IMG/VR virus record: IMGVR_UViG_3300002137_000213 | Coordinates: 1-49,547 of that record | Length of the DNA stretch: 49,547 nucleotides | Origin: a virus | Strand: one strand, 5' to 3' | Shown here: positions 7,365 through 32,053 of the stretch, in pieces | How the letters are laid out: each line of letters begins with the position of its first letter | Numbering within the stretch: position 1 is the first letter of the stretch | Notes under the pieces: model-generated | The model's input: only the letters and a program-made list of their open reading frames with translations | What the model was told of the DNA's origin: nothing | Databases searched by the model: none | Translations under genes and position numbers: made by a program

Positions 7365-10300
7365 ATGCCCATTACCTCCGGCAAGTTGTATGACAAAGCA
7401 GCATATTGGGATGAGTTCTATGGGGATGGAAAGCCTCCTGCCCCGTTAAGCATAGACCTTCCGAGCGACAACTCGGGCAGCGATATGAACGACTTCAGCA
7501 AGGGTCTCTATGCTGGGGGCAATCAGATGCAAGCTCTCGGCAGCGGGCTAGTTGCCGCATACGGTTCGGTAACTGACAACGAGGACCTTCTTCAATCGGG
7601 CATGGAAGATTACGTCCGCAACATGAATGAGGCGAAATCCTACTCTGGCGCTGTTGTTAATTTTACAGACATTGGCTCGGCGAAAGATGCTGGAAGCTGG
7701 ATGGCGTATTCGCTAGGCACGCTGGTCCCTGATATCGCACTAATGATAGGCACAGGCGGAGTTGGTGGAGCAATAGCTAAGCAGGCAGTTACGCAGGGCG
7801 CAAAAGCATTTGCTGAAGCTCTGGCGAAACAGGGGGCGGAGGAGTTTGTTAAAGCTGGATTGGAAAAGGACGCGGCTGAATACATTGCAAAAGAGGCGGC
7901 AGCGAAAGTCATCCAAGCTAAAGCCGCAAAAGCAGCAGCAGTAACGGGGTTAGCCACCAGCGCAGTCGGCTCTGGACTTCAGGGGACAGGCGGCTCGTTT
8001 GCGGAAATCTTACAGCAGACCGGTGTTGAAGCTCCGTTTGCTGCGCTGGGTGTTGGTGTTGCTACTGGTGCGCTAGATGCCTTGCCGTTTATTAGGGTTT
8101 TTGACGGCATGTTTCCGGCAACTGCAAAGAAAGACTTTCAGGAGTTTATTGCCAGCCGTCTAGTCGACAATGCCCCGTGGAAAATACAAGCTCTCAAAGA
8201 CCTCATGGTGATCGGAGGTGCAGAGGTTGGCACCGAAGTGCTTCAAGCGCTCATTGAGCGTGACGCTATCACTTGGGTCAACAACAATTACGGCGAAGGT
8301 CCAGCGAAAGAGTACGGTCAGTTGCTAACGACAGAAGATGGTCGTCGCCAGTTGGTCAATGTGGCAGCGGTATCTTTGCTTGGCGGTACAGCGATTGCCG
8401 CGCCAACTATTGCAGCAAAGAAAGTCACAGGGCGGTACGACCGAGAAGTCAATTACGGCGACGATGCAAAGGTAGTTAGGACTGATACCGGCAGGGACCC
8501 TGAGTTTAGATCCAAGATAGAAGAGGTGCTCAATTTTTACGAGGACCCTGCCAATCAAGGCAAGACTCGGGTTGGTGACGAGGTCCAAAGTGAACGCCCT
8601 GTCGATCCCGTTACTGGCGAACTAGCCATAACATGGAATAAGGATGGCGCTCTAGACCCGAATACTAACCGTCCTTACATGCAAGAACAGACAAGCCAAG
8701 CGACAACTATAGGCGCTGACGCTTCAGAAGCCCCCGTAAATATCACGGAGGGAGCACTGCCAGCCGATCAGCAAAATTCAGCGGTCGGGGAAATACAACA
8801 ACCCCAAACTCAAGAATCATTGAGTACGGTTGTAGTGCCAGAAGCCAAGACACCATACGGTCCAGAGCATAGGTTCGACGCGCCACTCTCTGACGTTGCC
8901 ACTCCATACCAAGAGCAGCTATTACAGTTGTCTATTGTAGCGGCTACCCCAGAGGCGCAAGACCCCAGCAACCTCGACGTTGTTGTTGAGGCAATAGACC
9001 AAGATGACGTTGACAGGATATTCGATAGAAATGCGTCACTGATGATTCAAACGCCAGACCGCCCTAAAGGGAAAAGTCTGCCAACTATAGAAGAAGCGTT
9101 CGGCACTGAAGCGACCACTGTGACTAATGCGGTTGCAGGCGTCATGGCGGATCTAAGCGCTAGCGGCGTCCCCAAGCTGTTTATGGACAAGGTGACAGGG
9201 GTCTACGTTCATGATGATGCTGATGTAGAGGCACCGGCTATGACCGGTCAGCGCAGTAGGGGCGTGTCGTTTAGCCGGAGTCTTATTGGAGAGTCATTAC
9301 AGGGCGGTGACAAGCTAAGCGAGATGGCGTGGAGTATGACGCACGAAGTCTACCACGCGGCAGATTTCGACATGAACCTAAGCTCAAAGAACAAAGCTTT
9401 TGGTATGGAGATTAGTGATGAGGCTAGCGAGCCTAGCGTTGCCATGGGCGGTATCATGCGGGAGTTGTTTAACAACTGGCTTGACCAAACCCCAACAGGT
9501 AAGCGGTTCAACTATCCTTTCAATGACCTACAATCTGATATTCTGGACACGACAAAACCCAATGGCGGGCTAAATGCCAGATATCGTCAGGAGGTGTTTG
9601 CTCAGCTTGGCGCACTGTTCCACTCGAACCCTAAAGAGCTTCAAGCCGCTGCTCCATTGGCGTACAATTATATTAAGCAGGTTCGAGATGCGAATTTAAA
9701 GACAGCAAAACCCCCAGAGGTTATCAATGAAACTAGTGAAAATCCCCGCCCCGCCGACACCTCCCAACCTACAGGCATATCAGGACAAGTTCGGGCACCG
9801 CCAGTCGCCGGAAGCGACACGGGCGTACAGCCCAGATCAACTAGACCAGATGGCGAAGGAAGCGTTGTCCAAGGGCGAGCCGATACCCCTGTGGAGGGAT
9901 CGCCACAAGACACGACTGGGCAACGTCAACGACCAGATGTACAAAGATCTCCAGTAGCGGCAGAGTCGTCACGTACCGAGGTAATCCTCAAGGCTACTGA
10001 TAAGAAACCCACATTTAAGAAGGCAGATAACTGGGATGATACCGGCGAGCAGATCATCACGTTTGCCGATGGTGATCGCTACACAGTCTACTTTGACGAT
10101 GATGCGGCGGAGGCTGGCGCAGAGCAGTGGTACACCTCTGCTGACGGAACGTTTACTGGCGCTGAAGAGCTGCTGGGTCAGACCAAGGCAGAGACAATTA
10201 CTGCCTTGCAGGAACACCGCGAAAAATTATTAGCCGCCGGAAAAAATTCATACAACACCCCACTTGACCCTCAGGTAGGGAGAGAAACCTCCTTCAAAGC

Positions 10301-13300
10301 TTGGGAATTCATAAGTGATAAGGGTCAAGTAACAGAGAAGCAGTTACGCACTAAGTTCAAAGGTTTAGAAGATAACCAGTTCGACAATCTAGTTGAAGGT
10401 CTGCTGTCTGAAACAGACCCTGAAAGCGTTATCACTCTAGAAGATGGAAAGTTCCTGTCCTATGACTATGTTCAGGAGAGAGATCTAGACGGTCTTCAGT
10501 CCGACATTGATGATATGAACTTCATCAAGAAGGGCGCAGAGTATCTCCTTCAAAAGTCTAGGGGCACAGTTGGCGAGAAGAATACTCTGCCTGTAACCAA
10601 GATAACTCCCGCAACAAAAGACCCAGAGAAACAAACCCAGCGGTCAGCCGAGGTAGTGGCTAAGCACCCAGATGCACTGTCTAGTCCGGCAGCATGGCTG
10701 GCGTTTGAGCGCGACCTAACAGGAAGGTCGGAGACCCTAGCGCCTCCATACGGATTGATTAGCCTGTACAACGACATGGATTCATGGGTAAAGACCCACG
10801 CCAAATTGACACCTGAGCAGCTAAGCGCGGCGAATCGTGGACTCGCTACAGCCAAAAGAATGGGCGAGCTGTATAACTCTGGTCAAGCTACCGCTAACGC
10901 TACAGCTAAACTTCTGCTTTGGGGCTTGATGTCCAGACGACAGACAGCTTCAGGTCAGGAGGCAGGCTTTGTTGATCTAATGACAGGCAGCACTGCTGTT
11001 TCTGATTTGGCTCAAAAGGCTTTGGCTGGCGATGTGTCAGATGCGGACGTTAAGGGTTGGGTCAGGCAGGTAGGGAAGCTAATACCTGAAGGCTCCTTTG
11101 GTCGATCAGCAATCTCTAACGCCAACGATTTTGGCAGTTTGATGCAAAAGCTGGCAGACCCCTACAATGGCGGCGAGTCTAAGTTGCAGCGCATTCACGA
11201 TATTATGGCTGACAGCAGCATTCCTACGAAGGAGGTTCGCCGAGAGTTCCAAGTCATTGTTCAAGGTTCAGGCATAGACAACAAGGTCTTCTCTTTTGCT
11301 CAGTTAATGATTGGTCGAGACGATGTTGTGATCCTTGACCGCATCCAGCTCAACTCAATGTGGGACTCAACCCGTTACGGCAAAAACATTTATGATGACT
11401 TGGCAGACGAGTTCAGTGGTCTTCGCGGTTCAGCCCGTTACGAGGCTATAGAGAACTCTCTCAATACTAGACTCAAGGAGCTGTATACAAAGCTGGGCAG
11501 ACCAGAAGATGCGTCTATTGGGCGCTATCACTGGGAAAGCTGGGTCAGAGACTCTGGTCAGATTGTTGCCCACCCTACTATGCAGGGGCTTGAGAAAGAC
11601 ATTCTCGGCAAGCAGAGTCCCTATGCGTTTATTGGTGCCCCTGAAGGAAAGGGGGATATGTATCGCTCTGGTGCCGTTTATGCCCGAGACGACAAGGGCA
11701 CGCCTTACTACGTGTACCCGAAGTCCAACGGCAAGATGTATAAGTTTGAGAAGGGCGAGTTCAGGAAGTTTTTAGACGAGATACCAAAACCTAAAAATGG
11801 TATAGTTCCCAAAGACTTTAAAGTAAGTAAATTTAATAAAGGTACACCTTGGTATGAAGCCGAAAGTGTTAGCAGACAAAAACTCGACAAGCTCGTCGAT
11901 GAGTTCTCTGAAAGAGAGGCAGCTCAAAGAGAATATGCTTCTGAAAGAGCTGTTACAAGTAGTGCCCCCAATGGCTCCAGACGAGCCGAGCGAAACAGAG
12001 TCTACAAAGAGCTTCGTAGTCCCCGACTATCTGATAGCGGGCGTGGCGGAATTGAAGGAAGCATACCCAGACGCTTCAGAAGAAGACCTAGCAAACCGTC
12101 TAAAGTATTACTAGCTGGAAGCCAAGTATCAGGGTACAAGCGCGAGCTTGAGACTGATGCACGCGCAGCATTAAATTCTGTTGATAGCTACAATGGCACT
12201 GTCATTGAGCTGACCAAAAACAAAACAAACGCCAAACTATTTGCAAGCAAGATGGAAGCATCGAAGGACGCTAGCCCATATGGCGCTGCGGTCTACGTCT
12301 ATCCTGAGTCTGAATATCAGAATATGCAGATGTTCATGACCGAGGACGGGTCCGCTGGCATTGCTATCGACAACGGCGACACAATAGTTTCTCTTTATAG
12401 TGACGGGACAAACAAGAACGTAACTTACGCACTGGCTTCGCTAGCAGTAGAGGAAGGTGGGATTTATTCCGATGCGTTTGATACTGAATTGCCGCACATA
12501 TATCAGCACGTTGGCTTCAAAGTTATTTCAAGGCTCAAGTGGGATGACGCGCAAGCCCCTGCGGACTGGGACAAGAGAACATTCTTGCCTTACAACAAGG
12601 GCGAGCCTGACGTTGTTTTCATGGTTGTCGACCCTAAGTACTTCGGACCTTACACCAAAGACACAGGCTACGAGGTGGAGACATACGAAGAAGGTATGCG
12701 TTCTATTCGTGAGACCCGTAGACCTGAGCAAGAAAGAATATCCCCCAAGCTAAAGCAAGCCGTGCAGGACAGGATTGATCGCAAGATCTCTGCTGCCGAG
12801 CTTAACGATACCTTCAGAGAAGAAGGTCGTTACGTTAAGCCGATGCATCCTGACATGATAGCTCCCTTAAAGGATGATTCGCATTACGTTAGCGCCCTGA
12901 AAAGAACGAGCACAGAGCGAGACGGTCGCAGCAAAGAAAGCTATTGGATGTCGGATGCGCTGGTTGACGGTCAGAGATATGGCTCTCGTCTGGACATCCC
13001 CTCGTACTCTAGGCTTCCTATGGATGAGCGGGCGGACATTGTCACGATGCACGAATCCAGACCAAACGCGAAAGCAGGAGCGGCAGGACGCCGACTGGGC
13101 TACTACCCAACCATCAGCCTCAAAGATGTTGTTTTTGCTGTCCCAGAGAAGGGGGCTACAAAGATAGCTGTAGGTGCGGACAAGAACACCATCGCAACTA
13201 TCGAGGGCAATTACGTTGCGGCTGACCATGAGCAAAACAGGCTAGACTTTATCCGTTACATGGATGATCCGGCTTGGACTCAAATATCAATGAACCCTGA

Positions 13301-16300
13301 GCGACACTCGTTTTACTACGATCTGGCTAATCAGACCCCAGTTGTGAGTGCCACCCAGGTTGTTCAGGTCGGCAACCTAGTAATAGCCAAGGACGTTGTC
13401 TATGACGACGTTGAGAAGTTTTCCTTCATTAAGCGCAAGCAGATAAACGAAGAGACAGGAACACTTGACGACGGCACGCCATCGAACTATCAGTTTAGCT
13501 TTAATGATGAGATGGACTCTCAGGCTGACCTAGCCCGCCGATTTAGAGAAACGAAGATATACAGGTCGTTTGGCGACAGGTATCAGGCGCTTCGAGAGTT
13601 TGAAGATCAAGCTGCCGAATTCCTTGGATATGGTCGTTTGCCTGCGGGCTTGTCTCCGAGAGATCAGGAGAACCTTTCGCACGGCAGGGTTCAAAAAGAC
13701 TTAGACGAGTTTCACAAGAACCGCATAGACCCACTCGGAGAGATGATCTACAAAGCAGGGTTCGACGTGGAGGCAGTCGGCACTTATTTGCTGGCTAAGC
13801 ACGCGCCAGAAAGAAACGATTCTATAGCAGCCAAGGTCAAAGCCAATCAAGAGAAGTTGATCGCTCGCACCGAAAATGAAATTGAAAGGTTGCTCGACGA
13901 CGATGGCGTAGACCACACAGTAGCGCTGGAGACTCAGAGAGAGCTGTTGAACGGCTACAAGACAGACCCTCTGAAGTTTCAAGACACGGGGAGCGGTATG
14001 ACGTATGCCCAGTCACTAGCAATCCTAAGCATGGCTGAGCGTGAGGGCACTGCTCAGGCTATGGAGAAAATAGCAGCCAAGGTCTATGAAATGCACGACG
14101 AGAGCAGAGCGCGTATGGTAGAAGCGGAGCTGCTTGACTCGGAAACCAAAGAAGACTGGGAAGCAAACTTTAAGTACTACGTTCCTTTGAAGGGTTTCGC
14201 AGCGCAGTTTGAAAACGATGAGTATAGCGCCGGTACTGGCTCGCGAGGCTTCTCGATAGTGGGTAGCGAAAGCCTAAAAGCCAAGGGTAGAAAGACTCTG
14301 CCTGTAAACCCGCTGCTGCAATCAATAGAAGATATTCAAAAGAAAATTATTCGGGCGAGAAAAAATGAAGTCTCCCAAAAATTATTAGAGCTGCTAAGCG
14401 CACTGGGTAATGCCAAGGTGGAGGACTCGCTTGAGAGCGGTTCAATAAAGACCAAGTCTTACACGATCTACAACAACAAGTTCCGCCCGCCGATGGACAA
14501 CGATCAGTACACGATGAAGAACATCGATGATATGCGGAGGGAGGTCAGAGACTCAGGTCAGTACCCTAATGATCCTAAGTACGTCGTCGTGAAGAAAGGT
14601 GGTCAAACATTCCTGATTCACTTTAATAGCGACACGCTAAATCATTCACTTCAGAACATGAGCGTTCCAATGCTATCAAGGGCAAGCGGAGCGATGGACG
14701 TCATACTCAATGGCTTGACTAGGTTTCAGACGTTTAGGCGCAACATGCTGATCAACTACAACCCCGCATGGATGGTAACCAACCCAATCCGAGACGTTGC
14801 TACAGGGTTGATCTATGCGATGGCAGAGTCGGATAAAAAAGGATCAAGGGTCCAAGGCGAAGGAATCCTTGGCAAAACGGTACAGAACTACTTCCCGTCT
14901 ATTAGGGCGCTCTACAGGTACTACAGAGGCAAGCCGGACAGGGATGGCAACAAGATGGATCAGTACGCCCGCGAGTTCCATGAAGATGGTGCTTCGACCG
15001 GTATGGTTATGATGAAGGATAAAAAAGAGCAACTGAGGGCGCTTAATTCACAGCTCAGGAAGGGCAAGATTAAATCCATATTTAGCTACCTAGCCAAAGG
15101 GGTTGAGGACGGGAACAAAACGAGTGAAAACGCTATCAGGCTCTCAGCCTATATCGCTGCACGCAATGCAGGGACGGACAGAGAGACCGCAGCCACACTA
15201 GCAAAAGACCTGACGGTAAACTTCAACAGGAAAGGCGAAGATACGTCGACTTTTGGGGCATTGTACCTGTTCTTTAACGCAGCATTCCAAGGCAACGTTA
15301 ACTTCGTTCAGGCGATGGGTGCCGGAACCAACGCGGATGGCAGCGCAAAGGAATTTACCAAAGCAAGAATGGTCGCTACCGCGCTGGTTATGGCGGGCTT
15401 CTGGACCGCGATGCGAAACATCGATGAATCAGAAGAAGATGACGATGGCGAGCTGCGCTATAACGACCTACCTGAGCATGCCAAAAACAGAGTGCTGCTT
15501 GTCAATTATAACAGCGAAGAAGGTGCCGCAGTCCCGCTGTCCTATGGTTACAACTTCTTCACCAATCTGGGAAGACTTTCCGCTGAGTATCAGCAAGGCG
15601 TCATTGACGGGGGAGAATTCGGGTTGCATCTTTGGGACAACCTGCTGTTGAACTTCCTGCCGGTCTCCTATGACAAGGGGGACAACGTGTGGCAGGCGGC
15701 TAGAGGGTTTCTGCCTGATGCTCTGCAACTGCCAGTGGATCTCATGGTCAATAGGAACTTCTTCGGCAGTGAGATTGCTGTTGAGCAGAATGAACTGTTC
15801 ACAGAGAAGTCTACCGCCTACGCCTCCAAACGATCAACCCCAGTACTTTGGCGGAGAACAGCAGAGTTCCTCAACGACGCGACGGGTGGCGATAAGTATA
15901 AAAACGGGCTGTTGCACCTCAGTCCCGAGCGCATCGATTACATGTTTGACTATCTAATGGGAGCCGTGGGTCGAGTTGGCGTGCAGTCAATCGATGCGAT
16001 CTCGAAGATAGGTACAAACGAGACTATTGATAACAACAAGTTGCCAGTTGTTGGTGGGTTCTTTAAGAAACCTTCTGACTATGAAGATCGATTTGAGTTT
16101 TATGACAACTATATGTACATGCGTGGCGTCAAGGCTCGGCTCGAGGAAACCACCAGAGGCACTCCTGAGTTCAAGGAGCTTCAAGAAAAGTACAAGCCAG
16201 TGTCTTGGATGCTTTTAGGGTTCCACCAGCAGGCTAAGAAGGACTTGGATAAGATCCGAAAAACGAGAAAGGCTCTTGAGGATCAGGTCTACACCACGTC

Positions 16301-16418
16301 GAGAGAGTCCAAAGAAGAAACGCGCAGGACTAATCTTGAATACTTGTTGGAGCAGGAAAATAAAGTGTTTGATGCTTACAACAAGAGATTCAGAGAGTCG
16401 AGAAAGGCGATGGACTAG
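7365..16418 (+). CDS. Giant polyvalent virion protein with metallopeptidase and LPD38-like regions
   Basis: 3017 residues, about a fifth of the window; RBS AGGA 7 bases before ATG. Segments in order: Ala/Gly-rich, partly hydrophobic helices (residues ~85-340); a zincin-type metallopeptidase motif HEVYH at 660-664; a long charged linker; an alpha/beta segment ~1600-1760 containing YTYALASLAVEEGG-like and GFKVISRLKWDDAQAP strings, as in GNAT-like or ADP-ribosyltransferase-like modules of polyvalent proteins; and from ~2450 a helical region with NYNPAWMVTNPIRD and LYLFFNAAFQGNVNF, resembling the LPD38 domain of phage polyvalent proteins. Such proteins are thought to be packaged and delivered with the DNA, carrying peptidase and effector domains. 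Module boundaries are approximate. Confidence 0.75.
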   Translation: MPITSGKLYDKAAYWDEFYGDGKPPAPLSIDLPSDNSGSDMNDFSKGLYAGGNQMQALGSGLVAAYGSVTDNEDLLQSGMEDYVRNMNEAKSYSGAVVNFTDIGSAKDAGSWMAYSLGTLVPDIALMIGTGGVGGAIAKQAVTQGAKAFAEALAKQGAEEFVKAGLEKDAAEYIAKEAAAKVIQAKAAKAAAVTGLATSAVGSGLQGTGGSFAEILQQTGVEAPFAALGVGVATGALDALPFIRVFDGMFPATAKKDFQEFIASRLVDNAPWKIQALKDLMVIGGAEVGTEVLQALIERDAITWVNNNYGEGPAKEYGQLLTTEDGRRQLVNVAAVSLLGGTAIAAPTIAAKKVTGRYDREVNYGDDAKVVRTDTGRDPEFRSKIEEVLNFYEDPANQGKTRVGDEVQSERPVDPVTGELAITWNKDGALDPNTNRPYMQEQTSQATTIGADASEAPVNITEGALPADQQNSAVGEIQQPQTQESLSTVVVPEAKTPYGPEHRFDAPLSDVATPYQEQLLQLSIVAATPEAQDPSNLDVVVEAIDQDDVDRIFDRNASLMIQTPDRPKGKSLPTIEEAFGTEATTVTNAVAGVMADLSASGVPKLFMDKVTGVYVHDDADVEAPAMTGQRSRGVSFSRSLIGESLQGGDKLSEMAWSMTHEVYHAADFDMNLSSKNKAFGMEISDEASEPSVAMGGIMRELFNNWLDQTPTGKRFNYPFNDLQSDILDTTKPNGGLNARYRQEVFAQLGALFHSNPKELQAAAPLAYNYIKQVRDANLKTAKPPEVINETSENPRPADTSQPTGISGQVRAPPVAGSDTGVQPRSTRPDGEGSVVQGRADTPVEGSPQDTTGQRQRPDVQRSPVAAESSRTEVILKATDKKPTFKKADNWDDTGEQIITFADGDRYTVYFDDDAAEAGAEQWYTSADGTFTGAEELLGQTKAETITALQEHREKLLAAGKNSYNTPLDPQVGRETSFKAWEFISDKGQVTEKQLRTKFKGLEDNQFDNLVEGLLSETDPESVITLEDGKFLSYDYVQERDLDGLQSDIDDMNFIKKGAEYLLQKSRGTVGEKNTLPVTKITPATKDPEKQTQRSAEVVAKHPDALSSPAAWLAFERDLTGRSETLAPPYGLISLYNDMDSWVKTHAKLTPEQLSAANRGLATAKRMGELYNSGQATANATAKLLLWGLMSRRQTASGQEAGFVDLMTGSTAVSDLAQKALAGDVSDADVKGWVRQVGKLIPEGSFGRSAISNANDFGSLMQKLADPYNGGESKLQRIHDIMADSSIPTKEVRREFQVIVQGSGIDNKVFSFAQLMIGRDDVVILDRIQLNSMWDSTRYGKNIYDDLADEFSGLRGSARYEAIENSLNTRLKELYTKLGRPEDASIGRYHWESWVRDSGQIVAHPTMQGLEKDILGKQSPYAFIGAPEGKGDMYRSGAVYARDDKGTPYYVYPKSNGKMYKFEKGEFRKFLDEIPKPKNGIVPKDFKVSKFNKGTPWYEAESVSRQKLDKLVDEFSEREAAQREYASERAVTSSAPNGSRRAERNRVYKELRSPRLSDSGRGGIEGSIPRRFRRRPSKPSKVLLAGSQVSGYKRELETDARAALNSVDSYNGTVIELTKNKTNAKLFASKMEASKDASPYGAAVYVYPESEYQNMQMFMTEDGSAGIAIDNGDTIVSLYSDGTNKNVTYALASLAVEEGGIYSDAFDTELPHIYQHVGFKVISRLKWDDAQAPADWDKRTFLPYNKGEPDVVFMVVDPKYFGPYTKDTGYEVETYEEGMRSIRETRRPEQERISPKLKQAVQDRIDRKISAAELNDTFREEGRYVKPMHPDMIAPLKDDSHYVSALKRTSTERDGRSKESYWMSDALVDGQRYGSRLDIPSYSRLPMDERADIVTMHESRPNAKAGAAGRRLGYYPTISLKDVVFAVPEKGATKIAVGADKNTIATIEGNYVAADHEQNRLDFIRYMDDPAWTQISMNPERHSFYYDLANQTPVVSATQVVQVGNLVIAKDVVYDDVEKFSFIKRKQINEETGTLDDGTPSNYQFSFNDEMDSQADLARRFRETKIYRSFGDRYQALREFEDQAAEFLGYGRLPAGLSPRDQENLSHGRVQKDLDEFHKNRIDPLGEMIYKAGFDVEAVGTYLLAKHAPERNDSIAAKVKANQEKLIARTENEIERLLDDDGVDHTVALETQRELLNGYKTDPLKFQDTGSGMTYAQSLAILSMAEREGTAQAMEKIAAKVYEMHDESRARMVEAELLDSETKEDWEANFKYYVPLKGFAAQFENDEYSAGTGSRGFSIVGSESLKAKGRKTLPVNPLLQSIEDIQKKIIRARKNEVSQKLLELLSALGNAKVEDSLESGSIKTKSYTIYNNKFRPPMDNDQYTMKNIDDMRREVRDSGQYPNDPKYVVVKKGGQTFLIHFNSDTLNHSLQNMSVPMLSRASGAMDVILNGLTRFQTFRRNMLINYNPAWMVTNPIRDVATGLIYAMAESDKKGSRVQGEGILGKTVQNYFPSIRALYRYYRGKPDRDGNKMDQYAREFHEDGASTGMVMMKDKKEQLRALNSQLRKGKIKSIFSYLAKGVEDGNKTSENAIRLSAYIAARNAGTDRETAATLAKDLTVNFNRKGEDTSTFGALYLFFNAAFQGNVNFVQAMGAGTNADGSAKEFTKARMVATALVMAGFWTAMRNIDESEEDDDGELRYNDLPEHAKNRVLLVNYNSEEGAAVPLSYGYNFFTNLGRLSAEYQQGVIDGGEFGLHLWDNLLLNFLPVSYDKGDNVWQAARGFLPDALQLPVDLMVNRNFFGSEIAVEQNELFTEKSTAYASKRSTPVLWRRTAEFLNDATGGDKYKNGLLHLSPERIDYMFDYLMGAVGRVGVQSIDAISKIGTNETIDNNKLPVVGGFFKKPSDYEDRFEFYDNYMYMRGVKARLEETTRGTPEFKELQEKYKPVSWMLLGFHQQAKKDLDKIRKTRKALEDQVYTTSRESKEETRRTNLEYLLEQENKVFDAYNKRFRESRKAMD

Positions 16419-27321: not shown

Positions 27322-27479
27322 GCGCTCACCTTCAATATGTGGAATTTCAGGACAATATCCAAGGTCTTCCCGAGCTGGATTATTTCCGCTTTGGCAAAAT
27401 CCTTGTTGACGTTTTCGTTGTCGAGCATGGTAAGGAGTACAGCCGCTAGGCTTTCGTAGGTGTTGTCTTGATCGGTCAT
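27318..27479 (-). CDS. 53-residue protein following a hammerhead motif
   Basis: Starts at ATG 27479, six bases after AGGAGG. Helical and acidic (TYESLAAVLLTMLDNEN). Its leader contains a hammerhead motif and a hairpin that encloses the RBS, so expression is probably controlled in RNA. Function unknown. Confidence 0.5.
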   Translation of the reverse strand: MTDQDNTYESLAAVLLTMLDNENVNKDFAKAEIIQLGKTLDIVLKFHILKVSA

Positions 27480-27504: not shown

Positions 27505-27564
27505 ACTAGGACGCCCATAGTCGGGCGTTTCGGCTGATAACCACTCAGCAGCTCATCGGCTAGC
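27505..27564 (-). ncRNA. Hammerhead ribozyme, type I, probably degenerate
   Basis: Minus strand: stem I GCTAG with CTAGT (27564-27560 and 27509-27505); core CCGATGA; stem II with loop GTGGTTA; GAAA; stem III ACGCCC/GGGCGT; then C17 with predicted cleavage between 27510 and 27509. The layout matches the second type I copy at 28382-28435. Two departures, core position U4 read as C and a two-base bulge in stem II, predict poor activity. Confidence 0.65.
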
Positions 27565-27897: not shown

Positions 27898-28079
27898 GCT
27901 TCGTCCTCTTCGTCATCTTCGTCCTCTATTTGGGGTATTAGATTGTCCCATCCGTAAGCGATGCTCTGCTCTTCCACCCATTCGGCAGAGGTGTCGCCTA
28001 ATTCCTCGGGCGTCCATAGAATTACGGCGTAGCCTTGATCGGTTAGTTCACGCAATGCGGTTAAATGTGCGGCGTTCAT
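27894..28079 (-). CDS. Small acidic hypothetical protein
   Basis: 61 residues, overlapping both neighbours by ATGA. LRELTDQGYAVILWTPEELGD, then EWVEEQSIAYGWDNL, and a strongly acidic tail (IEDEDDEEDEA). Small phage proteins with a YAV...TPEELG motif are common but uncharacterised. Confidence 0.55.
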   Translation of the reverse strand: MNAAHLTALRELTDQGYAVILWTPEELGDTSAEWVEEQSIAYGWDNLIPQIEDEDDEEDEA

Positions 28080-28354
28080 GCTGTCACCTCCGCTTTGTAT
28101 CTAGCCAAGTCTCTCGCCGATGTTTTTATGTTGCTCTCCATTCTGTCGATCTTGTAATCAGAAAGCCCCGCAACAATTTCTCGAATTAATGTTTGGGCGC
28201 TATCCTGCGCGGCTATTTGTGCGTTGATGCCTAGTTGGGCGGAAGCGTGGTGTGAATTTTGCTCAGCCTTATATATCGCGGTTAAATCGTCGAGACTGAA
28301 CTGCCCGATAAGCCGCTGCACTGCGCCTGAAATGATTTTTCGTTTGATTTCCAT
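28076..28354 (-). CDS. Helical hypothetical protein following a hammerhead ribozyme
   Basis: 92 residues, RBS GAGGAGG in a small hairpin, with the ribozyme at 28382-28435 in its leader. Predicted mostly helical (SAQTLIREIVAGLSDYKID). First of a coupled three-gene set. Unknown function. Confidence 0.5.
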   Translation of the reverse strand: MEIKRKIISGAVQRLIGQFSLDDLTAIYKAEQNSHHASAQLGINAQIAAQDSAQTLIREIVAGLSDYKIDRMESNIKTSARDLARYKAEVTA

Positions 28355-28381: not shown

Positions 28382-28435
28382 TCTAGGACGCCTCGCGGCG
28401 TTTCGACCGGTTACCGTCCGGTCTCGTCAGCTAGA
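28382..28435 (-). ncRNA. Hammerhead self-cleaving ribozyme, type I
   Basis: All conserved elements are present on the minus strand. Stem I TCTAG/CTAGA (28435-28431 with 28386-28382); core CTGACGA (28430-28424); stem II GACCGG/CCGGTC with loop ACGGTAA; GAAA (28404-28401); stem III ACGCC/GGCGT capped by a GCGA tetraloop; C17 at 28387. Predicted cleavage lies between 28387 and 28386. Cleavage would release the mRNA of the gene at 28354 with a short leader and leave the ribozyme on the upstream fragment. Confidence 0.88.
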
Positions 28436-29109: not shown

Positions 29110-30009
29110 TTAGGCGGCTAAAACTCTATGGCTTGCAGAGTCTAGGGAAGCACTACCGTTATCGTCTAGATACTGCACAGCAGCAGATGCCTGCTTGGCT
29201 GCCTTGACGATATGCTTAGGGTCTGACTTGAGCGACTTGAGCCACGATTTTATGTATGACTCATGCTGCAAGCCTTCGTAGGGTAAACCTAGCAACGCAC
29301 CGCCCATCGCGGCGCCTAGCTCTGCGACCAATTCCTCGAATGCGTAACCCTCAGAGCCAAAGGAGTTCAGGATCTGACGCTTGAGGCGTGAGGTGTGACC
29401 TGTCCAATGCACCATCTCATGCAGCAGGGTGGCGTCGTGGTTCGCCTCATCTTTAAAGGCATCGACTGACGGCATCTTGATGACATCCTGAGATGGGATG
29501 AAGCAGGCAGTATCACCGCCGTATTGCAGATTGATGCCAAGAGACTCAGCCAGTCGATTGACCGAGCCAGTACCGGCTGCCGGTGGGGTGTAAGTCTTGA
29601 TGCCCTGTAACCCTTCGATCTGTGCCACGTTCCAGACTGGAAAGCACTTGTTAATGAAGCCGGTCTTGGCGTCTCCGGTGGCTTTGTCCTTATAGCTAGA
29701 CCGCGCCATGAACCAGACATATTCGCACCCGCCGTTTTCGTCCTTGGATGATGGCACCTTGCCGCCTAGTGCAGTTGCCTGCTTGTAGGTCATCCAGCCA
29801 TTGCTGCCCCACTTGGCGGACGCCATGCTGAGATTTATCCAGTTGATGCCGGAGTAAGGTCGCCCCGTGCTGGCATTGTGTGGCACGCTGCCGTCGAAAA
29901 TGTGCGCCCACGGTTTGCGCCAGTCGCTGGCGTTTTCTAGGTTGGCGATGATTCGGTCAGTGACCACTTGAAACATGTCTTCATATTTGCTCATTTGTAA
30001 TTCCATCAT
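29110..30009 (-). CDS. ArdC-like antirestriction protein (ssDNA-binding + zincin)
   Basis: 299 residues from ATG 30009, chosen because GAGG lies six bases upstream; an ATG at 30117 gives a non-homologous extension. The N-terminal DUF1738-type domain shows PWAHIFDGSVPHNASTGRPYSGIN and KCFPVWNVAQIEG. The zinc metallopeptidase-like domain follows with HEMVHWTGH (H197, E198, H201) and FEELVAELGAA. ArdC of conjugative plasmids protects incoming DNA against restriction and binds ssDNA. In a phage it would shield the genome early in infection. Strong family match. Confidence 0.88.
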   Translation of the reverse strand: MMELQMSKYEDMFQVVTDRIIANLENASDWRKPWAHIFDGSVPHNASTGRPYSGINWINLSMASAKWGSNGWMTYKQATALGGKVPSSKDENGGCEYVWFMARSSYKDKATGDAKTGFINKCFPVWNVAQIEGLQGIKTYTPPAAGTGSVNRLAESLGINLQYGGDTACFIPSQDVIKMPSVDAFKDEANHDATLLHEMVHWTGHTSRLKRQILNSFGSEGYAFEELVAELGAAMGGALLGLPYEGLQHESYIKSWLKSLKSDPKHIVKAAKQASAAVQYLDDNGSASLDSASHRVLAA

Positions 30010-30079
30010 TGAATCCTCAGGTCTAAGTTGAAAAAAATGTGGCGGGAGAAACAAAACACCCCCCCAGTCCCGAATGCCC

Positions 30080-30367
30080 TCATACGTGATAACAGACCGC
30101 GTAACTGGTATATCCATGGATAGCCTTATACTGCCTGTCGAAGTGCTGACACTCTCGGGTGGGGAGCTGCTCAGCGAAATCGTTCATCCTGTCGACCAGC
30201 TTCGACTCTGCCCGCTCATGCCGCTCGCGCAGTCGCGCACCGTTGGCGCTGTGCTCGTCTTCGGTGTCCCATACTCGCTGGTGTGTCTCGAGCAGATCGC
30301 TGTAGCGGCGATCCAAGTTATAGAGCTGCTGGAATCGCTTGGTGTACTTCTCATGTAGTGCTTGCAT
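30080..30367 (-). CDS. Coiled-coil hypothetical protein
   Basis: 95 residues, RBS GAGGAGG. Charged helices with YTKRFQQLYNLDRRYSDLLE and GARLRERHERAESKLVD suggest a coiled coil. A terminator separates it from the preceding gene. Function unknown. Confidence 0.5.
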   Translation of the reverse strand: MQALHEKYTKRFQQLYNLDRRYSDLLETHQRVWDTEDEHSANGARLRERHERAESKLVDRMNDFAEQLPTRECQHFDRQYKAIHGYTSYAVCYHV

Positions 30368-30400: not shown

Positions 30401-30423
30401 AAAGCCACTCGGTGAGTGGCTTT
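30401..30423 (-). terminator. Rho-independent terminator
   Basis: AAAGCCACTC and GAGTGGCTTT form a perfect 10-bp stem with a three-base loop. On the minus strand the stem is followed by TATTGTATTTATT. It ends or attenuates transcription of the upstream small-gene group before the 30367 gene. Confidence 0.75.
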
Positions 30424-30880: not shown

Positions 30881-31031
30881 GGTTGCCTCCTTGAAAGCTG
30901 CGCTGATTCTTCAAAGTCAATTCAACAGCTTCTATAGCGGCTTCGACCTGAGCGCAGTCCATGTCGTTGCACTTCATGAAGTCAAGGCTGTAAAGCAAAG
31001 CGCCCAGCACATCCTGCTCGTAGCGGCTCAT
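30864..31031 (-). CDS. Small hypothetical protein
   Basis: 55 residues, ATG overlapping the previous stop and preceded by GGAG. MSRYEQDVLGALLYSLDFMK, then CNDMDCAQVEAAIEAVEL: helical and acidic with two cysteines. Its 3' end overlaps the next gene's start and RBS by 17 bases. Confidence 0.45.
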   Translation of the reverse strand: MSRYEQDVLGALLYSLDFMKCNDMDCAQVEAAIEAVELTLKNQRSFQGGNHANHC

Positions 31032-31207
31032 AGTGCCAACTCCTTTGACTTCTGGGTGAAGGTGTAGCCCAGTTGCTTCATCAGCGCTCGGGTCTGGTCG
31101 GTCAGTGTTTTGGTGCCAGCAATGCGGGCGAAAGTGTCACCGACGTGACAGGTTGGGTAGACGTTGATAACGCCGTAGACATTTTTTACTTCGACAGTGA
31201 TTTGCAT
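31028..31207 (-). CDS. Small hypothetical protein
   Basis: 59 residues from ATG 31207 (GAGGAGG upstream). MQITVEVKNVYGVINVYP is a beta hairpin-like start, followed by a helix (LTDQTRALMKQLGY). Preceded by a GCGCC/GGCGC hairpin at about 31232-31250. Function unknown; its leader and first codons are duplicated at 30880. Confidence 0.5.
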   Translation of the reverse strand: MQITVEVKNVYGVINVYPTCHVGDTFARIAGTKTLTDQTRALMKQLGYTFTQKSKELAL

Positions 31208-31261
31208 GGGTGCCTCCTCAGGCGGGTTGTTAAGCGCCCTCATTGAAGGCGCAATTAGTGC

Positions 31262-31492
31262 TTACCATCCGCAGACTTCTGATTTCTGCTCTGCTTTTAG
31301 ATCTCGGTATTCGTCCATTTCTTTTTTGACTTCATTCCAAGGCATCAGTCCAGACTTGCCCTCGAATTCCGAGTAGTGAATAAAGTCATTCCATTCAGCG
31401 CCCCCAAAACACTCGACAAAAATGTCCATTCCTTTGTCGTAATTTGCTTCGGCGTAGGCTTTTGCTTTATCGATAATCTGCTGTGCGTTCAT
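31262..31492 (-). CDS. Hypothetical protein following the type III hammerhead
   Basis: 76 residues, RBS GAGGAGG inside a GCCT/AGGC mini-hairpin. Acidic and helical (IDKAKAYAEANYDKGMDIFVE is split by a turn), then WNDFIHYSEFEG. First coding gene of the leftward accessory operon; the ribozyme at 31509-31560 lies in its leader. Unknown function. Confidence 0.55.
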   Translation of the reverse strand: MNAQQIIDKAKAYAEANYDKGMDIFVECFGGAEWNDFIHYSEFEGKSGLMPWNEVKKEMDEYRDLKAEQKSEVCGW

Positions 31493-31508
31493 GGTGCCTC
31501 CTCAGGCT

Positions 31509-31560
31509 AGTGTTTCGATCTGGCTGATCTCATCAGTGCGCCATATAAGACGCAGACACT
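31509..31560 (-). ncRNA. Hammerhead self-cleaving ribozyme, type III
   Basis: Minus strand order: AGTGT (31560-31556) then C17 (31555); stem I TGCGTC/GGCGCA with loop TTATAT; core CTGATGA (31536-31530); stem II GATC/GATC with loop AGCCA; GAAA (31516-31513); and ACACT overlapping it (31513-31509) to close stem III with AGTGT. Predicted cleavage lies between 31555 and 31554. All core bases match the hammerhead consensus. It sits 17 bases upstream of the 31492 start and near the 5' end of the operon transcript. Confidence 0.88.
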
Positions 31561-31638
31561 TGAATGGGTCTTGCCGCTTCACCCGTCGCATCTGCTCTAT
31601 CACAGTCTCTCGGGGTGCCCCTAGCCCTCTAGGTCGGA

Positions 31639-31655
31639 TCTGGTAAATTACCAGA
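31639..31655. promoter_or_regulatory. Near-perfect 17-bp palindrome, candidate operator
   Basis: TCTGGTAA and TTACCAGA surround one A. It lies just downstream of the leftward promoter candidate, where a bound repressor could block the accessory operon. Confidence 0.45.
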
Positions 31656-31718
31656 CAAATGAAATCTACCACGGCTTAAATTCAGCACGCAAGCTTTTTT
31701 TGCATCTACGCGCAATTA

Positions 31719-31774: not shown

Positions 31775-32053
31775 TTGGATGCGGACGTGGATATAGACCG
31801 GCGGCTTGACAGAATGGAAGCGAAGCTTGACGCGGTCGGCGAGACGCTTCAGCACTTGGCGAGAATCGACGAGCGGCTCACTGGCGGTCATAAGCGCATC
31901 GATGGGCACGACCATAGGCTAGACGCATTAGAGGTTCAGGTGCGGCTAGTAGATAAGCAGATGGCACAGAACGCAGGGCGCGGCATGGTGGTAGAGCGTG
32001 CGGCTTGGGTAGTGTTCGCGGCGATAGTCACCGCAGTGTCGAAATTTTTCTGA
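31775..32053 (+). CDS. XhlA-like small membrane protein
   Basis: 92 residues from a TTG start (AAGGGCGG upstream). Coiled-coil N-terminus (RRLDRMEAKLDAVGETLQHL, DHRLDALEVQVRL) and a C-terminal hydrophobic segment (AAWVVFAAIVTAV). This layout is that of XhlA/hemolysin-type proteins and other lysis-associated phage membrane proteins. It precedes the terminase and overlaps its start. A lysis role is plausible, not proven. Confidence 0.5.
   Translation: MDADVDIDRRLDRMEAKLDAVGETLQHLARIDERLTGGHKRIDGHDHRLDALEVQVRLVDKQMAQNAGRGMVVERAAWVVFAAIVTAVSKFF

Follow-up and report, generated by a model that had tools for sequence, protein, structure and literature searches.

The minus strand of a viral DNA record encodes a complete type III hammerhead that is probably a genuine cis-cleaving ribozyme, serving as a fixed 5′-end processing element for an operon of variable accessory genes. 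The window analysed is the whole 49,547-base IMG/VR record. At the level of sequence, the elements follow one another in the order structured leader, type III ribozyme, Shine-Dalgarno hairpin and exchangeable gene (Table 1). The phage is of marine type and carries an integrase, and its portal protein is ~31-35% identical to those of HMO-2011-like, Roseobacter and Pelagibacter podoviruses.

Table 1. Features of the hammerhead region, with window positions and the evidence on which each was assigned.
Feature	Position	Strand	Evidence or remark
Homologue of the region that has the leftward promoter (TTGACA-N17-TACAGT) in relatives	31665..31700	-	Alignment and pattern scan
Structured leader RNA, 3′ of the promoter region and 5′ of the ribozyme	31562..31669	-	Consensus fold, lineage model R3
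Type III hammerhead ribozyme	31509..31560	-	Predicted cut 31555 (C17)/31554; sequence, fold, Rfam RF00008, lineage model R2 (69 bits), covariation
Shine-Dalgarno hairpin GCCU-GAGG-AGGC, directly 3′ of the type III ribozyme	31494..31508	-	
First gene after the type III ribozyme; 76 aa, without a known family	31262..31492	-	
Second gene	31028..31243	-	Its L215 relative comes first behind the ribozyme
Terminator-like hairpin with T-rich tail	30401..30423	-	Consensus match only
ArdC-like anti-restriction protein	29110..30117	-	Pfam ArdcN and MPTase-PolyVal
Type I hammerhead	28382..28435	-	RF00163 32.9 bits, lineage model R1 66.4 bits, family covariation
Third hammerhead, type I, U4C core (CCGAUGA)	27505..27564	-	Lineage model R1

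The sequence-only reading of this DNA had described a complete type III hammerhead with a CTGATGA/GAAA core, stems of 5, 6 and 4 bp and C17 at 31555, and both sequence and fold confirm this description. From 31560 to 31509 the minus strand reads AGUGU, C, UGCGUC, UUAUAU, GGCGCA, CUGAUGA, GAUC, AGCCA, GAUC, GAA and ACACU. Stem III comprises 5 bp, A15.1-U16.1 included, stem I has 6 bp with one G-U, and stem II has 4 bp. Stems I and II are closed by the loops UUAUAU and AGCCA, leaving stem III open; this type III permutation, also claimed before, is borne out by the fold and by an end-to-end match to RF00008. Rapid cleavage by such hammerheads requires a tertiary contact of loop I with loop II. 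The core (CUGAUGA and GAAA) matches CUGANGA ... GAAA with H17 (not G), and, with C17 at 31555, the predicted cut falls where the earlier reading had placed it. When the 52 nt are folded in isolation, the minimum-energy fold is the hammerhead structure, at -13.6 kcal/mol. With a z-score of only -1.0, this energy is by itself uninformative as evidence for the hammerhead.

Comparison with the Rfam type III model, which had been suggested as a check, bore out the structure but fell short on score. RF00008 (Hammerhead_3) aligns over all 54 model positions at 36.7 bits, under its gathering score of 48.5 bits, which is a curation cut-off and not a structural criterion. The E-value is 3.8e-5 (8 kb, all 4227 families), or 5.5e-8 if the family is searched alone, and the type III copy of one relative reaches 40.0 bits. 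Because 36.7 bits lies below 48.5, a default Rfam run lists nothing at the type III copy; across the window, the default scan gave no family at its cut-off, and the hammerheads emerged in a relaxed scan. A three-stem descriptor at a score of at least 13 found both the type III copy and the type I copy at 28382-28435 in the window, whereas 300 windows resampled by a first-order Markov model gave no match at that score.

Evidence for the structure also came from related loci, drawn from relatives of the window primase, relatives of ArdC and a scan with the type III pattern. The broad hammerhead pattern scan includes chance matches, and the loci listed were used only after filtering with the three-stem descriptor. 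The lineage type III model finds 20 loci at 45-80 bits, 17 of them in the window's phage lineage (window counted); among these 17 the window and L122 are near-identical, and L219, L221 and L233 are other phages. A search for the host in genome contigs turned up neither a relative of the primase nor a type III pattern match, and deposited phages showed no DNA similarity around the type III ribozyme and no relative of the 76-aa first gene. Since the lineage models were built from the same sequences, independent evidence comes from the shuffles and slides and not from the scores of training members. In ten distinct type III sequences 95.3% of pairs are preserved, compared with 82.3% in shuffles, and there are 19 cells with double-sided changes, compared with 5.1. 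Such changes occur at 6 of the 15 type III pairs, and the signal is destroyed when the partners are slid. Each of the ten aligned sequences has the A15.1-U16.1 pair and the G10.1-C11.1 pair. The 20 type I sequences compared retain 97.8% of pairs, with 56 double-sided changes against 12.8 in shuffles.

The same comparison bears on whether the type III stretch might be no ribozyme at all but a piece of a 56-codon reading frame (31502-31672), which is extremely improbable. In the window and in L215 no stop interrupts this frame across the hammerhead, but it is broken upstream in L134, L204, L223, L228, L225 and L230 while the RNA pairs are kept, and the window and its relatives differ by one base in loop I. 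The coding reading is rejected because the frame is not conserved.

In all lineage contigs with the head of the gene block mapped, the type III copy stands at that head, ~500 nt from a divergent holin-like gene (31775-32053 in the window), in agreement with the earlier claim that it heads a leftward block; cleavage there would thus trim the primary transcript near its 5′ end. The leftward promoter proposed nearby is seen in relatives, where TTGACA-N17-TAnnnT lies 133-186 nt upstream of the ribozyme and transcripts would therefore start ~100-150 nt before it, but a sigma-70 scan of the minus strand at the block head of the window found no consensus match. The further claim that the type III and type I copies belong to the same operon is doubtful, as a 10-bp terminator-like hairpin (30423-30401) lies between them; all copies are on the same strand.

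A structured leader of ~100 nt precedes the type III ribozyme in 10 contigs. Its consensus fold from 8 sequences has 23 pairs, 10 with double-sided changes, and the leader model scores the window, which is among its training sequences, at 73.5 bits (E 5e-15). A comparison of the leader with Rfam gave no match. Four contigs (L134, L204, L223 and L228) have a different, longer and unrelated-looking leader before the ribozyme. When the full leader is included in the fold, the predicted pairing probability of stem III is 0.014 in the window and 0.014-0.76 in relatives, and the leader may therefore compete with the ribozyme.

On the downstream side, the ATG lies 17-24 nt from the type III ribozyme in the lineage. 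Among 73 distinct type I contexts, a Shine-Dalgarno sequence and start codon follow within 60 nt in 71 and within 35 nt in 70 (median 25). Hammerheads end no more than 30 nt from an open reading frame with a Shine-Dalgarno sequence in 57% of cases, compared with 7% of random positions, a statistic that is not unbiased because the loci were chosen by hammerhead patterns or kinship, among the matches listed. At start codons in the lineage loci, 107 distinct CCTGAGGAGG sites have complementary flanking bases in 96% of cases versus 47% expected, the sites coming from related sequences and not counting independent events. The outer pairs divide into G-C 49, A-U 25, U-A 22 and C-G 4, and the occurrence of four pair types argues for a real NCCU-GAGG-AGGN′ hairpin. 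Small covarying hairpins of the form NCCU-GAGG-AGGN′ or NCC-GAGGA-GGN′ stand at 31506, 31222, 30381 and 28370 (minus strand) in the window, and the 107 sites are spread over L122-L233. They are not limited to genes behind ribozymes, and the hairpin is possibly a binding site for a translational regulator.

While the ribozyme stays in place, the gene behind it changes. The first gene after the type III copy encodes 76 aa in the window, 135 aa in L134 and 58 aa in L139; it is ArdC in L203 and L207, and the others were each found once. An ArdC-like gene often lies directly behind a hammerhead in relatives, and depending on the relative this hammerhead is of type III or of type I; the ArdC-like protein alone was named when PADLOC and Pfam were applied to the small genes. 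L215 lacks the window's first gene, and the DNA to either side of it matches at 96%. These matches overlap by 15 bp at a repeated Shine-Dalgarno sequence, GCCTGAGGAGGCACC; the simple reading is that the gene would have been swapped by recombination at this repeat. The constant place of the ribozyme and the changing gene behind it suggest a fixed device that would trim the 5′ end for any accessory gene.

Type I copies lie within the block. The copy at 28382-28435 ends 27 nt before the ATG of the open reading frame 28076-28354. The third hammerhead (27564-27505), 25 nt upstream of an ATG at 27478, scores 56.9 bits with R1 (E 9e-17 in the window), has intact stems and is outside the R1 training set. 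Its U4C core is a known weak hammerhead variant that is biologically tolerated (PMC3088659). The window thus has three hammerheads, all on the minus strand, within 4.1 kb. The sequence-only reading had called the co-occurrence of type I and type III forms unusual, but this is normal for the lineage: most contigs with a type III copy also have at least one type I copy, and there are contigs with five to seven. Prophage clusters of hammerheads with their types marked were reported in 2011 (PMC3088659). In the sister group L155-L158, a type I copy instead of a type III copy precedes ArdC. Independent acquisition of the two types, as suggested before, is no more than a possibility, in keeping with their different permutations and positions. 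The third hammerhead, the Shine-Dalgarno rule and the swapped cargo genes go beyond the sequence-only reading.

Under the proposed mechanism, the transcript would cut itself at 31555/31554, ~100 nt after its start, and release the leader with a 2′,3′-cyclic phosphate end. The mRNA would then start with a 5′-OH and the folded remainder of the ribozyme immediately before the ribosome-binding site. Whatever gene is placed behind the ribozyme, its mRNA would begin with an identical, defined and structured 5′ end, and the stability and translation of that gene should thereby become independent of the leader. The type I copies would work with the reverse geometry: the upstream RNA would keep the ribozyme at its 3′ end, and the gene that follows would start with a short leader. 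A more tentative extension, possible but short of an even chance, is that leader, type III hammerhead and Shine-Dalgarno hairpin together act as an expression platform on which accessory (anti-defence) genes can be exchanged; genes would be swapped through recombination at the repeated Shine-Dalgarno sequence, and self-cleavage would fix the mRNA 5′ end and translation start whatever their origin.

The leader is at the centre of two other explanations. In one, the ribozyme is a regulated switch, controlling the operon rather than trimming it constitutively: the leader would pair with the 5′ strand of stem III, and cleavage would depend on how the leader folds, on a ligand or a protein, or on the speed of transcription. 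The leader structure is itself conserved, and the minimum-energy folds of the window leader pair GGCAC with GUGUC of stem III. However, relatives are inconsistent in favouring the competing pairing, as the range of stem III probabilities shows, the consensus fold retains the hammerhead, and four contigs have a different leader. A switch is rather unlikely on this evidence. The alternative that the leader is an antitermination or RNA-polymerase-binding element, from which the ribozyme frees the mRNA, is unlikely. It would account for a multi-helix leader placed directly after the promoter of a long operon and for a predicted cut that falls between the leader and the ribosome-binding site, but the leader has no Rfam match and no known antitermination protein was identified nearby. 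There is a parallel in phage lambda, where RNase III cleavage of the N leader frees the mRNA from the leader. As in lambda, the predicted cut in the window RNA would separate a structured leader from the first gene of an early operon transcribed leftward; the lambda cut is made by a host protein, whereas the window RNA is predicted to cut itself.

It is also conceivable that the hammerheads are neutral or selfish remnants that have spread with exchanged gene cassettes. A hammerhead and its gene can be gained or lost as a unit (L155 compared with L156/L157), and phage modules are freely exchanged. Against this, pairing is maintained by double changes in both type III and type I copies, nearly all cores are intact or compensated, the spacing to the start codon is tight, and the type III copy stays put while the genes behind it change. 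Such passenger status is highly improbable, and fixed 5′-end processing by a cis-cleaving ribozyme is the reading we prefer.

Several features of this arrangement have precedents. The prophage clusters described by Perreault et al. in 2011 likewise have several hammerheads per phage, of types I-III, flanking single genes or short blocks; these clusters are active in vitro, an Agrobacterium set is also active in E. coli, and one cluster adjoins the anti-restriction gene ardA (PMC3088659). What differs here is a positional rule from lineage-wide comparison, with type III at the head behind the leader and type I inside, as well as the placement of each hammerhead immediately before a Shine-Dalgarno sequence, the swapped cargo, and the presence of ArdC rather than ArdA. 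In haloviruses HF1/HF2, an early polycistronic transcript has HHphage 13 nt upstream of the start codon of its first gene, and the mRNA 5′ end was mapped within 3 nt of the hammerhead cut (PMC3088659). The window copy shares this position shortly upstream of the first gene's start codon, but the HF1/HF2 copy is a core variant from archaeal viruses, whereas in the window the core matches the consensus perfectly and the Shine-Dalgarno hairpin is of bacterial type. RF00008, classically from plant satellite RNAs and viroids, has the same permutation, core and secondary structure; the window copy differs in scoring below the gathering threshold and in lying in a DNA phage operon instead of a circular RNA replicon. 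Because clustered phage hammerheads are already known, among them active ones and one mapped to an mRNA 5′ end, the window represents a well-resolved new case of a known kind.

The purpose of phage hammerheads has been an open question since their discovery (PMC3088659; PMC6155905). The lineage amounts to a natural experiment, in which the genes behind a fixed ribozyme change, type III heads the block with type I further in, and many independent copies stand at a tight distance from the start codon; the role of hammerheads in mRNA ends and translation is therefore directly testable. These copies escape the default Rfam cut-offs.

Some further observations concern the type I copies and the record as a whole. 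Loop II is complementary over at least 4 nt to the tail 3′ of stem I in 83% of type I copies, compared with 29% when the tail is shuffled; a pseudoknot of this kind has been described (PMC3088659). A compensated core pair, U3-A8 replacing C3-G8, occurs in L122:10717-10773, L127:7542-7600 and two copies of L152, and C3U/G8A core variants are likewise described (PMC3088659). On the 3′ side of the third hammerhead is a 6-bp Shine-Dalgarno hairpin, AUUACC-GCAGGA-GGUAAU, followed by a 53-aa open reading frame. Elsewhere in the window, 7365-16418 on the plus strand forms one reading frame of 3017 aa.
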